A stretch of 64,000 nucleotides of DNA from Chryseobacterium arthrosphaerae (GTDB lineage: Bacteria; Bacteroidota; Bacteroidia; Flavobacteriales; Weeksellaceae): positions 558,001 to 622,000 of the forward strand of contig NZ_MAYG01000001.1 in assembly GCF_001684965.1 (NCBI RefSeq). Direction: 5' to 3'. The translations under genes were made by a program, and so were the position numbers. The notes under the pieces were generated by a model, which saw nothing but the letters and a program-made list of their open reading frames with translations, ran no database searches and had not been told where the DNA came from. This document shows, in pieces, positions 26,245-30,703 of this stretch (the first letter of the stretch is position 1; each line of letters opens with the position of its first letter).

Positions 26245-27747
26245 ATGCAAATAGAAACAAGACCCCTGAACGTTCAGGATTATGATGAACTGGCACAAAC
26301 AATGAAAAGGGCTTATCCGCAAATGTCCGAATCAATATGGTCTAAGAAAAGTATTGAAAAACTCACGAGAATGTTTCCGGATGGCCAGATTTGTATTACA
26401 GTAGACGGAAAACTGGCTGCAGTGGCGCTGTCTATTATTGTGAATTATGACGAATTCGGGGATGATCATACCTATAGTGATATTACTGGAAATTATACCT
26501 TCAATACCCACACTTCAAAAGGAAATGTTTTATATGGAATAGAGGTTTTTGTAGATCCCGAATTCAGAGAACTGCGTCTGGGAAGAAGATTGTACGATGC
26601 CAGAAAAGAATTGTGCGAATTATTAAATTTAAAATCAATCATTCTGGGCGGAAGAATCCCGAACTATCATAAATACAGCCATGAGCTTTCTCCAAGAGAA
26701 TATATTCGAAAGGTGAGGGATAAAGAAATTTATGATCCTGTACTGTCTTTTCAGCTTTCAAATAATTTCCTGCCGATCAGAGTACTGAAAAAATACCTTC
26801 CCGAAGATGAAGCTTCACAGGAGAATGCAGTTCTTTTGCAGTGGAATAATATCTATTACAGCAAAAACCCGAATACCATGCAGGACAGCATCATCCGCCT
26901 GGGATTGGTACAATGGCAGATGAGGCATTTTAAAGATATAGACGCTTTTTATGAGCAGGTGGAATTCTTTGTGAATGTAATGGGAGACTATAAATCAGAC
27001 TTCGTGCTGTTCCCGGAACTCTTCAACACCCCTCTGCTGGCTCCCTTCAATAACCTTTCGGAAAGAGACAGTATGATAGAACTGGCAAAACTTACTGAAG
27101 ATATCAAAGAAAGAATTTCAGAGCTGGCCATCAGTTACAACGTGAATATTATTTCCGGAAGTATGCCTGTTTTTGAAAACAATGAATTGTATAATGTGAG
27201 CTATCTCCTTCACCGTGACGGCCGTATGGATGAATACAGAAAAATTCATATCACCCCGAATGAAAAGAGATATTACGGAATGAAAGGCGGTAATGAAATC
27301 AAAGTATTTGATACCGACTGTGGTAAAATAGGCCTGGTCATCTGTTATGACGTAGAGTTCCCGGAGTTACCAAGAATCCTCGCTGATCAGGGGATGAAAA
27401 TCCTGTTTGTTCCTTACCTGACAGATACCCAGAATGCTTATATGAGAGTTCGCCATTGCGCTGCTGCAAGAGCAATAGAAAACGAATGTTATGTGGCTAT
27501 TGCCGGCTGCGTAGGGAACCTCCCGAAAGTGAACAATATGGATATCCAGTTCGGGCAGGCTGCGGTATTTACCCCTTCAGATTTTGCTTTCCCTTCCAAT
27601 GCTGTAAAAGGAGAAGCCACTCCCAATACCGAAATGACCTTAATTGTAGACGTAGATCTGAATCTGCTGAAAGACCTTCATCATAACGGTTCCGTTCAGG
27701 TGATGAAAGACCGCCGGAAAGACCTTTATGATACTTACCTTAAATAA
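26245..27747 (+). CDS. fused GNAT acetyltransferase / carbon-nitrogen hydrolase
   Basis: 500-residue two-domain protein. Residues 1 to about 210 form a GNAT-like domain with GIEVFVDPEFRELRLGRRLY (acetyl-CoA binding loop). Residues ~220-500 form a nitrilase-superfamily domain with the full triad: Glu258 (LFPELF), Lys333 (YRKIHITP) and Cys367 (VICYDVEFPE). The hydrolase domain should therefore cleave an amide. This fusion is a known arrangement in Bacteroidota and other bacteria, but the substrate is not known. It stands alone with a long upstream region and no clear operon partner. Confidence 0.9.
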   Translation: MQIETRPLNVQDYDELAQTMKRAYPQMSESIWSKKSIEKLTRMFPDGQICITVDGKLAAVALSIIVNYDEFGDDHTYSDITGNYTFNTHTSKGNVLYGIEVFVDPEFRELRLGRRLYDARKELCELLNLKSIILGGRIPNYHKYSHELSPREYIRKVRDKEIYDPVLSFQLSNNFLPIRVLKKYLPEDEASQENAVLLQWNNIYYSKNPNTMQDSIIRLGLVQWQMRHFKDIDAFYEQVEFFVNVMGDYKSDFVLFPELFNTPLLAPFNNLSERDSMIELAKLTEDIKERISELAISYNVNIISGSMPVFENNELYNVSYLLHRDGRMDEYRKIHITPNEKRYYGMKGGNEIKVFDTDCGKIGLVICYDVEFPELPRILADQGMKILFVPYLTDTQNAYMRVRHCAAARAIENECYVAIAGCVGNLPKVNNMDIQFGQAAVFTPSDFAFPSNAVKGEATPNTEMTLIVDVDLNLLKDLHHNGSVQVMKDRRKDLYDTYLK

Positions 27748-27828: not shown

Positions 27829-27862
27829 AAAAACAAAAAAGAGCAGATAAATTCTGCTCTTT
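27829..27862 (-). terminator. terminator of cysteine-rich peptide gene 1
   Basis: On the minus strand AAAGAGCAG, loop AATTTAT, CTGCTCTTT (27838-27862) is followed by TTTGTTTTTC. It starts 21 bases after the peptide stop codon. Confidence 0.85.
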
Positions 27863-27883: not shown

Positions 27884-28048
27884 CTACATGTATTCCGGAC
27901 AGATTACAGCAGGACAGTAATAGCCCGGGCATAAAGGTCTTCCATCCTTAGGGCAGCACTCGTAGGTGCAGCCACTGATGATAAGGCCGTTTCCTGAGAC
28001 TTTTTTTAATTGCTCTCTTGAAAGTCTGTTGTTACGTACATTTTTCAT
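27884..28048 (-). CDS. GG-leader six-cysteine peptide 1 (putative bacteriocin-like)
   Basis: 54 residues. The N-terminal half starts MKNVRNNRLSREQLKKVSG, which looks like a double-glycine-type leader (basic start, then LSREQLK, then a Gly-rich end). The probable cleavage point is after IISG at residue 26. The core has six cysteines at 27, 31, 32, 40, 45 and 50, with ECCP, KDGRP, and then CP recurring every five residues. Two paralogues lie directly upstream on the same strand. No C39-peptidase ABC exporter or modifying enzyme is in this window, so toxicity, signalling or another role cannot be decided. It has its own terminator. Confidence 0.8.
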   Translation of the reverse strand: MKNVRNNRLSREQLKKVSGNGLIISGCTYECCPKDGRPLCPGYYCPAVICPEYM

Positions 28049-28223
28049 GTTGAATATTTTTGATTAGTTTTAATAGTGTACTATAAAAACGATGTCTTAT
28101 CAGGTTTATTGTGGTAAAAACAAAGAAAGAATATACTCTGTAAAATGCTTAATGGAACATAGTGCCCTGCCATCGGAAAAATAATATTCTCTGCTCCTTG
28201 TGGGCGTTGCGTTAAGGTTTATA

Positions 28224-28257
28224 TAACAAAACAGAATACCCGGGAGCATTCTGTTTT
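28224..28257 (-). terminator. terminator of cysteine-rich peptide gene 2
   Basis: Minus strand: AAAACAGAAT, loop GCTCCCGGGT, ATTCTGTTTT (28228-28257), a perfect 10-pair stem ending in T's and GTTATAT. It starts 27 bases after the stop of peptide 2. Confidence 0.85.
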
Positions 28258-28283
28258 TATTTACCTAAAATTTAATGATTATC

Positions 28284-28451
28284 TTATACATACTGTGGGC
28301 AAAGAACGTCAGGGCAGATAAGTCCCGGACATGAAGGTCTTCCGTCAGTAGGACAGCACTCGTATGAGCAGTTGCCACCGATGATAATACCATTCCCTGA
28401 AACCTTTTTTAACTGAGCTCTCGAAAGTTTGCTTTTGTGTAAATTTTTCAT
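28284..28451 (-). CDS. GG-leader six-cysteine peptide 2 (putative bacteriocin-like)
   Basis: 55 residues, starting MKNLHKSKLSRAQLKKVSG. Likely cleavage after the Gly-Gly at residues 25-26 gives a 29-residue core NCSYECCP... Cysteines are at 28, 32, 33, 41, 46 and 51, in the same pattern as its neighbours. The core ends DVLCPQYV. It differs from peptide 3 at about 14 positions in all, more in the leader start and the C-terminal half of the core than around ECCPTDGRP. It has its own terminator, and its 5' leader resembles those of peptides 1 and 3, so the unit was duplicated with its upstream region. Confidence 0.82.
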   Translation of the reverse strand: MKNLHKSKLSRAQLKKVSGNGIIIGGNCSYECCPTDGRPSCPGLICPDVLCPQYV

Positions 28452-28530
28452 GCTGATTTTTTTGATTGGTTTAATAGTACTTAATTACAAACAGCATACA
28501 CTGTACCCTGTTTTTACCTTAAATTTAATC

Positions 28531-28698
28531 CTATAAATACTGAGGGCAAACTACAGCTGGGCAGATCAGTCTTGGACATCTTGGTCTTCCGTCAGTTGGA
28601 CAGCATTCATTTGAACAGCTGCCACCGATGATAATACCGCTTCCTGAAATTCCTTTTAATTGTTCTCTTGAAAGTTTGCTGTTACGTAAATTTTTCAT
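28531..28698 (-). CDS. GG-leader six-cysteine peptide 3 (putative bacteriocin-like)
   Basis: 55 residues, starting MKNLRNSKLSREQLKGISG. Likely cleavage after Gly-Gly at 25-26 gives a core SCSNECCP... with cysteines at 28, 32, 33, 41, 46 and 51 and the ending CPQYL. It is the first of the three on the minus strand. Upstream, TATATTTA near 28740 is a one-mismatch -7 box. Between it and peptide 2 only a weak six-pair hairpin (28489-28513) is found, so read-through into peptide 2 is possible. Positively charged leader and Cys-Pro-rich core are shared by all three. Confidence 0.82.
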   Translation of the reverse strand: MKNLRNSKLSREQLKGISGSGIIIGGSCSNECCPTDGRPRCPRLICPAVVCPQYL

Positions 28699-29053: not shown

Positions 29054-30703
29054 ATGTTTGACAAGCAGCAAAGAAAACTGAAAAGATCCGCCAGACTGAT
29101 ATCCGTATTGAGTAAATATGGTTTTAAAGACCTTCTGGCAAGGATGAACGGAGGAAATAAACAGGAAGAAACTTCAGGAAATCCGGATGAAATTATTTCC
29201 AAAGGCACCGTCTATGAAAGGATCAGACTGGCTCTTGAAGAACTGGGACCTACCTTTGTAAAGCTTGGACAGACCTTCAGCAGCCGGGAAGACCTTTTGC
29301 CGCCCGAACTGATCCAGGAGCTTCAGAAACTTCAGGATAAGGTGGAAACTGTAGATATGGATGTAGAGGAAGCATTGGAAAATGAATTCAATATTTCCGT
29401 GAAAGACCATTTCCTGGAGATTGAGAAGGAGCCTTTGGCTACTGCTTCTATTGCACAGGTGTATAAGGCTGTTTTAAAAGACGGCAGCCCGGTCATCCTG
29501 AAGCTCAGAAAACCGGATGTACAGTCTGTGATAGAAGATGATCTGCTCCTGATCAAAGACCTTGAAAAACTCTTGTCTGCCTATTCGGAAATAGGAGAGA
29601 AGCTTAATCTGAAGCAGGCGATTTCCACTTTTGAAAAATCATTGCTGGAGGAAGTATCCCTCATCAACGAAAAAAACAATATTCAGCAGTTCCGTCTTAA
29701 TTTTAAAAACAATAAGGAAACTTACGTTCCAAAAGTTTACGAAGAATTTTCCAACAACAATATCCTTTGTATGGAATTCATTGATGGAATAAAAGTCACG
29801 GATAAATCCATTCTTTTAGCCAATGGTATTGATCCTGTAAAAGTTTCTGAAACCGGATTGAGGCTCTTTGTATCCCAGATTTTAGATTACGGATTCTTTC
29901 ACGCCGATCCGCATGCCGGAAATATCCTGGTAAAAAAAGACGGTAAAATTGTTTTTATTGATTTCGGGGCCGTAGGAAAAATCCAGCCTAATGATAAAGA
30001 AATCCTTGAAAATCTGATCGTAAGCTTTGTTGCCAAAAATTCCCATAAAATAGTCCGTTATCTGAAGAAAATGGCTGTGAGCTACGAAATTCCCGATGAA
30101 AGAAGATTCGAAAATGATGTGGAAGATATCCTGAACTTTGTTCACAGTTCTTCATTACAGGAAATCAATGTACAGGTGATCATCAACAAAATGAAGGATA
30201 TTTTAAAGGACAACAGGCTGTACATGCCGGATTATTTTTACCTCCTGTTCAAAGGAATAAGCCTGATAGAAGGTGTAGGGAGAAACATCAATCCTGACCT
30301 TGATATCGTAAAGAGCCTTCATCCTTATACCAAAAAGATATTCACCAAAAAGATCAGCCCGAAAAATATTTTAAAGACAGGAATGGACCGGATGATGAAC
30401 TTCACGGACAACGTTGATGAAATTCCAAAAGAGCTCCGTTCCGTTCTTCAGAAGCTGGATGAAAATAAATTTACCGTCTCCAGCGAGATCAAGAATATAG
30501 AAAAAACGAATCAGCTGATTAAATCCAGTGTGATCAACCTTATTTTAGCGATGATTCTCGGAGCCAATATCATTGCCACCGCTATAGTTTTTGCTTCCGA
30601 ATCCGGCCCGAGAATAGGAGAATTGTCTCTGGTTGCTATCTTAGGATTTGTCTTTTCAGTTATTTTAGTTTTGATACTTTTGCTGAGAGTAACGAGAAAA
30701 TAG
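29054..30703 (+). CDS. UbiB/AarF-family atypical kinase
   Basis: 549 residues. Hallmarks of the ABC1/ADCK/UbiB family: the KxGQ-type motif FVKLGQTFSSR, the Ala-rich loop ATASIAQVYKA that replaces the usual P-loop, VILKLRKPDV with the ATP lysine, and the catalytic FHADPHAGNIL followed by FIDFGAVG. Two hydrophobic segments at the C-terminus anchor it in the membrane. Relatives support quinone synthesis or lipid homeostasis through ATPase activity. Flavobacteria make menaquinone, so an exact role is open. It is transcribed away from the peptide genes. Confidence 0.93.
   Translation: MFDKQQRKLKRSARLISVLSKYGFKDLLARMNGGNKQEETSGNPDEIISKGTVYERIRLALEELGPTFVKLGQTFSSREDLLPPELIQELQKLQDKVETVDMDVEEALENEFNISVKDHFLEIEKEPLATASIAQVYKAVLKDGSPVILKLRKPDVQSVIEDDLLLIKDLEKLLSAYSEIGEKLNLKQAISTFEKSLLEEVSLINEKNNIQQFRLNFKNNKETYVPKVYEEFSNNNILCMEFIDGIKVTDKSILLANGIDPVKVSETGLRLFVSQILDYGFFHADPHAGNILVKKDGKIVFIDFGAVGKIQPNDKEILENLIVSFVAKNSHKIVRYLKKMAVSYEIPDERRFENDVEDILNFVHSSSLQEINVQVIINKMKDILKDNRLYMPDYFYLLFKGISLIEGVGRNINPDLDIVKSLHPYTKKIFTKKISPKNILKTGMDRMMNFTDNVDEIPKELRSVLQKLDENKFTVSSEIKNIEKTNQLIKSSVINLILAMILGANIIATAIVFASESGPRIGELSLVAILGFVFSVILVLILLLRVTRK

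Follow-up and report, generated by a model that had tools for sequence, protein, structure and literature searches.

Three adjacent small genes of Chryseobacterium arthrosphaerae lie within the window (the whole stretch of 64,000 nucleotides of DNA that was analysed). They are read here as a conserved branch of scattered, exported, disulfide-bonded peptides that share one trans-acting machine and are bacteroidetocin-like in logic; we put the probability of this reading at about two in three. The three products would be precursors of small exported peptides whose six cysteines most likely form three disulfide bonds. A C39 peptidase ABC exporter (PCAT) from another contig, working with an HlyD-type adaptor, would recognise the leader of ~20 residues and cleave behind Gly-Ser or Gly-Asn. 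Oxidation of the cysteines would take place outside the cytoplasm and would fall to a VKOR-thioredoxin protein whose gene lies near that of the exporter. The same machine may serve ~55 candidate leader peptides across the genome, nearly all of them with an even number of core cysteines. The genes, their conservation, the parity of the cysteines, the gene contexts and the co-occurrence are observations; cleavage, export, formation of disulfides and the sharing of one machine are inferred from them.

The peptide genes and their surroundings

The genes, here called pep1 (28531..28698), pep2 (28284..28451) and pep3 (27884..28048), all lie on the minus strand and are open reading frames of 55, 55 and 54 codons. 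The initial annotation had described them as three adjacent genes of 54–55 codons with the same plan (six cysteines, ECCP, DGRP and a CP every five residues); every one of these features is present in all three, and that the three reading frames are genuine genes is confirmed. In each precursor residues 1–20 are the leader, which is basic (positions 28639-28698, 28392-28451 and 27989-28048, respectively), and 34–35 residues remain after residue 20. The six-cysteine core begins at residue 21 in pep1, and that of pep3 is of the CTYECCP..LCPGYYCPAV type. Identity to pep1 is 76% for pep2 and 67% for pep3. Common to the three are M1-K-N, L9-S-R, L14-K, S18-G19, C28, ECCP and DGRP, and CP occurs in each at 41, 46 and 51, a spacing of five residues.

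The genes sit between two genes on the plus strand that belong to a conserved flank outside the system, as indicated by synteny. One, at 26245..27747, encodes a carbon–nitrogen hydrolase whose N terminus is GNAT-like (the score for Pfam PF00795 exceeds the cut-off; for PF00583 the total score is at the cut-off, with no single stretch passing alone). The other, at 29054..30703, encodes an ABC1/AarF-like kinase (Pfam PF03109). No exporter or modification gene was found among the scanned neighbours of the peptides. Directly after pep3, at 27838..27862 on the minus strand, lies an intrinsic-terminator-like hairpin with a 10-pair stem and a T-rich tail; it is only suggestive of a terminator, with one such hairpin in the region and a mean of 0.7 (sd 0.9) in shuffles. 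A Bacteroidota promoter motif occurred in 0 of 142 distinct upstream stretches, and sigma-70-like matches upstream were at chance level (five found, 4.9 in shuffles). An A/T-rich block (ctatatttac...tacaaa...ttaaaac) lies ~45 bp upstream of pep1 and is similar in several orthologues; no promoter motif was identified in it.

The window peptides matched no Pfam or PHROGs family, and a profile search of the PDB with them gave nothing at E <= 10. An AlphaFold prediction of the peptide from 25 sequences gave a poor model, with a mean pLDDT of 54.6 and values of 68 and 65 for blocks 31–40 and 41–50, respectively.

Leader and predicted cleavage site

In substrates of C39 peptidases of the double-glycine type, the leader is hydrophobic at −4, −7 and −12 and has Gly at −2. 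The cleavage register was taken from the NCBIfam leader model NF047798 (leader_Chryseo), which places L14 at −7 and I/V17 at −4; pep1–pep3 follow the pattern with I/V17, L14, L9 and G19. Gly at −1, a further criterion for C39 substrates, is absent, the residue being S20 in pep1 and N20 in pep2 and pep3. The expected cleavage site, as predicted from this register, is G19-S20 in pep1 and G19-N20 in pep2 and pep3, not Gly-Gly, and the double-glycine cleavage at the Gly-rich end that had been proposed is not upheld. The Gly-Gly at residues 25–26 of pep1 and pep2 lies outside the leader register.

Scores against NF047798 were 20.7, 17.2 and 15.9 bits for pep1, pep2 and pep3, all under the cut-off of 23.5, and in all three the match ends at position 17 of the 18 in the model, one short of its final Gly. 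Alignment A2 has 25 members, each of which matches NF047798 at E <= 0.1, the best homologue at E = 2.8e-10. G19 (−2) is invariant in 125/125 distinct peptides. The residue at −1 is S in 72, N in 24, A in 18, G in eight and K in one of the 123 distinct peptides that have a residue there. A Gly-Asn cleavage site, as in those 24 of 123, is to our knowledge unusual; this and the lack of a Gly-Gly site speak against the preferred reading.

Conservation of the core

A set of 144 of 206 matches (>= 80 bits, 48–66 residues), corresponding to 125 distinct peptides, was retained for the analysis of conservation, and the same filter was used for the number of copies per locus. Six cysteines, R11, G19, P34, G37, V49 and P52 are invariant in 125/125 distinct peptides. 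Over 62 disjoint pairs of copies, dN/dS was 0.154 (0.124–0.190) for the core (dN 0.069, dS 0.450) and 0.34 (0.27–0.42) for the leader (dN 0.087, dS 0.255). The core is under purifying selection: its side chains are constrained across the genus and synonymous changes dominate. Since the leader dS is low, the leader dN/dS is inflated; the core is therefore at least as constrained as the leader, and the leader ratio is not to be read as relaxation. The earlier picture of conserved leaders and cysteines beside variable core side chains is not supported, and free variation of the cores is rejected on the core dN/dS of about 0.15.

Two smaller observations were made on these genes. The leader falls below the core in synonymous divergence (0.255 against 0.450), which suggests constraint on the start of the mRNA. 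In locus L064 the peptide gene is present both intact and, next to the intact copy, in a frameshifted form (near 1155-1300), and internal stops also occur in the matches of some relatives.

Distribution and genomic contexts

The A1 profile, built from the three window peptides, matched 39 proteins of a protein database at E <= 1 and, with the own genome included, 139 of 173 Chryseobacterium genomes at E <= 1e-5; the family is therefore not a chance one. (The match to pep1 in the own genome has E = 1.8e-36, the profile itself containing the window peptides.) Homologues with the same cysteine pattern thus exist, and the refuting condition of the initial annotation, that there be none anywhere, does not hold. 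Named sources among the 39 proteins are Chryseobacterium, and most of the entries are called 'hypothetical', with some called 'bacteriocin' or 'bacteriocin-like'. In a family-wide sample, 126/296 genomes from 3/33 genera matched at E <= 1e-3. Four genomes of one further genus (g23) match with E values of 4e-16 to 4e-15; in 12-kb stretches from that genus tblastn gave no match of more than 150 residues to either of the two window neighbours, to VKOR or to PCAT. The third genus is represented by a single weak match (3.9e-4).

Gene contexts were compared in 128 loci (that of the window and 127 others). These loci were picked from profile matches, so the proportions hold for this sample. One or both of the window neighbours are present in 109/128 loci: both in 95, only the ABC1 kinase in 12 and only the hydrolase in two. 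Wherever both are present (95/95), they enclose the peptide genes, which run on the opposite strand. Copies per window-type locus (n = 109) number one in 95, two in 11 and three in three.

A VKOR and/or PCAT match, counted without a length filter, replaces the window neighbours in 18/128 loci, and one of the 128 has none of these genes. Under a stricter filter (>= 55% identity over >= 300 residues) a full-length VKOR-thioredoxin gene lies 0.1–1.3 kb from the peptide in 17/128 loci. In 13 of these 17 a PCAT gene 88–91% identical to that of the own genome lies within 5 kb, so that 13 of the 128 loci, in other species, pair the peptide with both VKOR and PCAT. The other four have no PCAT inside the stretch examined. 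The best PCAT listed for a genome lies 154 kb (G142), 23 kb (G118) or 12 kb (G030) from VKOR, or on another contig (G111). One locus (L088) has only PCAT, 12 kb from the peptide. In VKOR-linked loci the peptide is often preceded by a Gly-Gly paralogue whose core is related and of the CCPPPG type. In the own genome a paralogue of this kind (C1:710361-710486) lies beside a four-cysteine peptide (the two together at C1:710361-710655; L004, L026), and a similar gene pair adjoins the VKOR gene in several other species.

In a tree of the peptide copies, those of VKOR loci and remote copies are not cleanly separated: the most recent common ancestor of the 17 VKOR tips holds 35 tips, with a support of 0.25, a point against the preferred reading. 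pep2 falls in a clade with eight copies of other loci (support 0.81), and pep3 groups with copies of L070, L051 and L058 (support 0.94).

For the final role of the window peptides our first guess, a tentative one, is a secreted antibacterial of bacteroidetocin type; we place it ahead of a conserved extracellular signal or envelope factor. In this serious alternative, to which we give a somewhat lower chance, the peptides leave the cell by the same route but are not toxins, and would serve the genus as a conserved signal outside the cell, as an envelope factor or in the handling of metals. It agrees with the core dN/dS of 0.15 across the genus, the profile match in 139/173 genomes, the window-type neighbours in 109/128 loci and the scanned neighbours, which hold no exporter or modification gene. 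Against it, tandem copies with differing side chains occur in 14/109 window-type loci (filtered copies), and bacteroidetocin loci likewise have no obvious immunity gene in the available text of PMC6671954, so that the absence of an immunity gene here is no argument against a toxin.

Leader peptides across the genome and cysteine parity

With a limit of E <= 10 the leader model gives 57 matches in the own genome, of which 30 exceed the cut-off. Two lie in long reading frames and were excluded, and 52 of the remaining 55 peptides were recovered. Core boundaries were cut by pattern, and a few cores may start slightly off. The cysteine content is 13.6% in the own cores and 0.7–0.8% in long open reading frames. 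The number of core cysteines is even (2, 4, 6 or 8) in 49 peptides and odd in three (n = 52), or 38 versus 3 when counted by core cluster.

In other genomes 203 distinct peptides were found using a leader pattern that recovers 39/52 of the own peptides. The 133 that were A1-like were removed before parity was counted. Of the 70 that remained, among them one frameshifted A1 copy counted as odd, 64 have an even and six an odd number (27 versus 2 by cluster).

As a control, long open reading frames with 2–10 cysteines were counted: 18 even and 14 odd in the window, 103 even and 71 odd in the sampled loci. The latter proportion (103/174, 59% even) is itself above half (p = 0.02), perhaps owing to repeated orthologues. 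Against this 103/71 control the excess of even counts among leader peptides gave p = 5e-7 for the own genome and 3e-7 for the others, and 2e-5 and 3e-4, respectively, by cluster. Cysteine parity offers a simple sequence test with which further systems of this kind could be found.

Candidate export and oxidation machinery

The initial annotation took the peptides to be precursors of double-glycine type which, with no adjoining exporter, would rely on machinery elsewhere, and suggested that an exporter of PCAT type be sought in the rest of the genome. Such a gene is present. Three C39 matches were obtained with Pfam in the own genome, two over the cut-off and one weak. The candidate exporter lies on another contig (C32:39227-39592), near a VKOR + Thioredoxin_4 gene and an HlyD_3 (HlyD-type adaptor) gene, and is flanked by leader peptides, one over and one below the leader cut-off. 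Read by eye, its C39 domain holds DCGPTC, NHFVVVY and ISDPSYG, in which DCGPTC and the His and Asp are presumably placed as in C39 motifs. The VKOR-thioredoxin protein has cysteines at 175, 188, 255, 258, 367 and 370. A C39-like leader-binding domain at its N terminus was considered and dropped (Pfam E = 0.15, hhalign probability 0.25%). Among the matches listed for both genes, VKOR and PCAT start <= 8 kb apart in 134/141 genomes; among the same matches, the other seven have them on different contigs (four genomes) or 12, 23 and 154 kb apart (three genomes).

The exporter on contig C12 was rejected as a partner of the window peptides, since it is of NHLP type by score (TIGR03796, NHLP exporter, 1049 bits; cut-off 853) and has an NHLP-leader-like precursor nearby (46.8 bits, just under the cut-off of 50.9). 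At this locus (L080:2328-11276) both NHLP ABC exporters and HlyD are over their cut-offs.

Just upstream of the VKOR-thioredoxin gene and C39 exporter on C32, at L079:1955-4130, lie a grasp-with-spasm ATP-grasp and a SPASM maturase, with TIGR04192 and TIGR04193 over their cut-offs. With this cassette beside it, the exporter may mainly serve graspetides. It is also conceivable that a different enzyme acts on the cores, these very maturases being one example, and that disulfides are secondary or absent; the position of the TIGR04192 and TIGR04193 proteins speaks for this, but an even cysteine count in 49/52 leader peptides and the two genes that flank the window peptides, a CN hydrolase and an ABC1 kinase, speak against it, and we regard it as improbable.

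Co-occurrence of leader and VKOR-thioredoxin

Genomes were scored with thresholds of E <= 1e-20 for VKOR, 5e-4 for the leader and 1e-5 for A1; phylogeny is ignored in all p values of this section. Within the genus, leader and VKOR occur together in 159 genomes, VKOR only in three, leader only in one and neither in ten (p = 6e-13). The A1 profile matches 139/162 VKOR-positive and 0/11 VKOR-negative genomes of the genus (p = 4e-9). In other genera of the family (147 genomes, part of the 296-genome sample and counted by hand) the corresponding numbers are ten with both, three with VKOR only, five with leader only and 129 with neither (p = 8e-10). Leader and VKOR-thioredoxin thus co-occur both inside and outside the genus, with exceptions that speak against the preferred reading.

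In one such genome, G068, four leaders score over the cut-off but no C39 or VKOR match was found; three of its leader peptides were read out (L288, L296 and L298) and have 4, 6 and 6 core cysteines. VKOR without a leader at E <= 5e-4 was found in G088, G137 and G029. A weaker leader match in G088 belongs to a peptide with six core cysteines, G137 has weak leader matches only, and G029, in which the VKOR match is weak, has no leader match at E <= 1.

That the window peptides bind zinc or another metal in the cytoplasm, the likeness to the leader being merely a shared N terminus, would suit the CP-containing cysteine motifs and CC pairs, which metal-binding peptides also carry, but is very unlikely given this co-occurrence, the cysteine parity, a leader that recurs in ~50 further candidate peptides of this genome, grouped into 41 core clusters, and the position of the peptide beside VKOR and exporter genes in relatives.

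For the preferred reading of exported disulfide-bonded peptides, a broader form can be drawn: a genome-wide disulfide peptidome in Chryseobacterium and some relatives, in which one PCAT and one VKOR-thioredoxin process dozens of unlinked peptides with unrelated cores, the window peptides being a strongly conserved branch with a fixed extracellular target and not an arms-race toxin. We hold this to be slightly short of an even chance. If it is true, a single deletion of the exporter or of VKOR-thioredoxin would halt the export of dozens of peptides, so that the role of this large and mostly uncharacterised set could be tested directly. The system would then also parallel, in bacteria, the repertoires of disulfide-rich peptides in venoms and plants, and could supply stable scaffolds.

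Comparison with known systems

The nearest parallel is with the bacteroidetocins (class IIf bacteriocins), in which, according to the available part of PMC6671954, one short locus without an obvious immunity gene encodes a four-cysteine peptide together with a thiol oxidoreductase and a PCAT. Compared by that description, the two systems have in common the occurrence in Bacteroidota, a double-glycine leader, a cysteine-containing core, a PCAT and a thiol oxidoreductase (here as candidates), and no obvious immunity gene (PMC6671954, available part). Bacteroidetocins have a 42-residue core with four cysteines and a compact locus of four genes (peptide, oxidoreductase, transmembrane protein and PCAT) in the same account (PMC6671954). 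The window peptides differ in having six cysteines, scattered genes, many peptides, a machine in trans and a constrained core. A PCAT gene and a thiol oxidoreductase gene are both present in the own genome, in trans, and may act on the window peptides. A compact bacteroidetocin-type locus is absent, the window genes lying where they do between the CN hydrolase and the ABC1 kinase.

Prochlorosins also have many precursors with a common leader and one machine, a lanthipeptide synthetase; the window system resembles them in the many precursors for one machine and differs in the predicted formation of disulfides. Clusters of sublancin-type glycocins encode a PCAT, thiol-disulfide oxidoreductases, a glycosyltransferase and a single precursor. 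The likeness to these lies in the C39 exporter and the disulfide-forming enzymes, whereas the window genes have no adjoining glycosyltransferase.

In ATP-grasp loci a C39 exporter, a SPASM maturase and HlyD are among the most frequent companion families, and the chryseoviridin graspetides share both the genus and the exporter type with the window peptides (PMC8939145, available part). In contrast to graspetides, the window genes have no maturase as a direct neighbour and encode a cysteine ladder instead.

The available part of PMC10352776 contains nothing on VKOR or thioredoxin, and among the matches listed from the open-licence PMC literature there is no description of this peptide system. 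The suggestion of an undescribed system holds only in part: similar peptides are, as the initial annotation had surmised, already labelled bacteriocin-like, since some homologues carry such names and two NCBIfam models already exist. The peptides are thus already labelled, through a leader and a distant relative, but not described among the literature matches listed. NF047798, 'bacteriocin-like protein', has the same leader, with the window peptides under its cut-off. NF047792 (CCPGW family putative bacteriocin) is a distant relative whose match covers the leader and a large part of the core: pep1, pep2 and pep3 score 8.4, 16.1 and 16.4 bits, respectively, against a cut-off of 80, and 19/25 members of A2 match it at E <= 0.1, the best at 2.9e-8.
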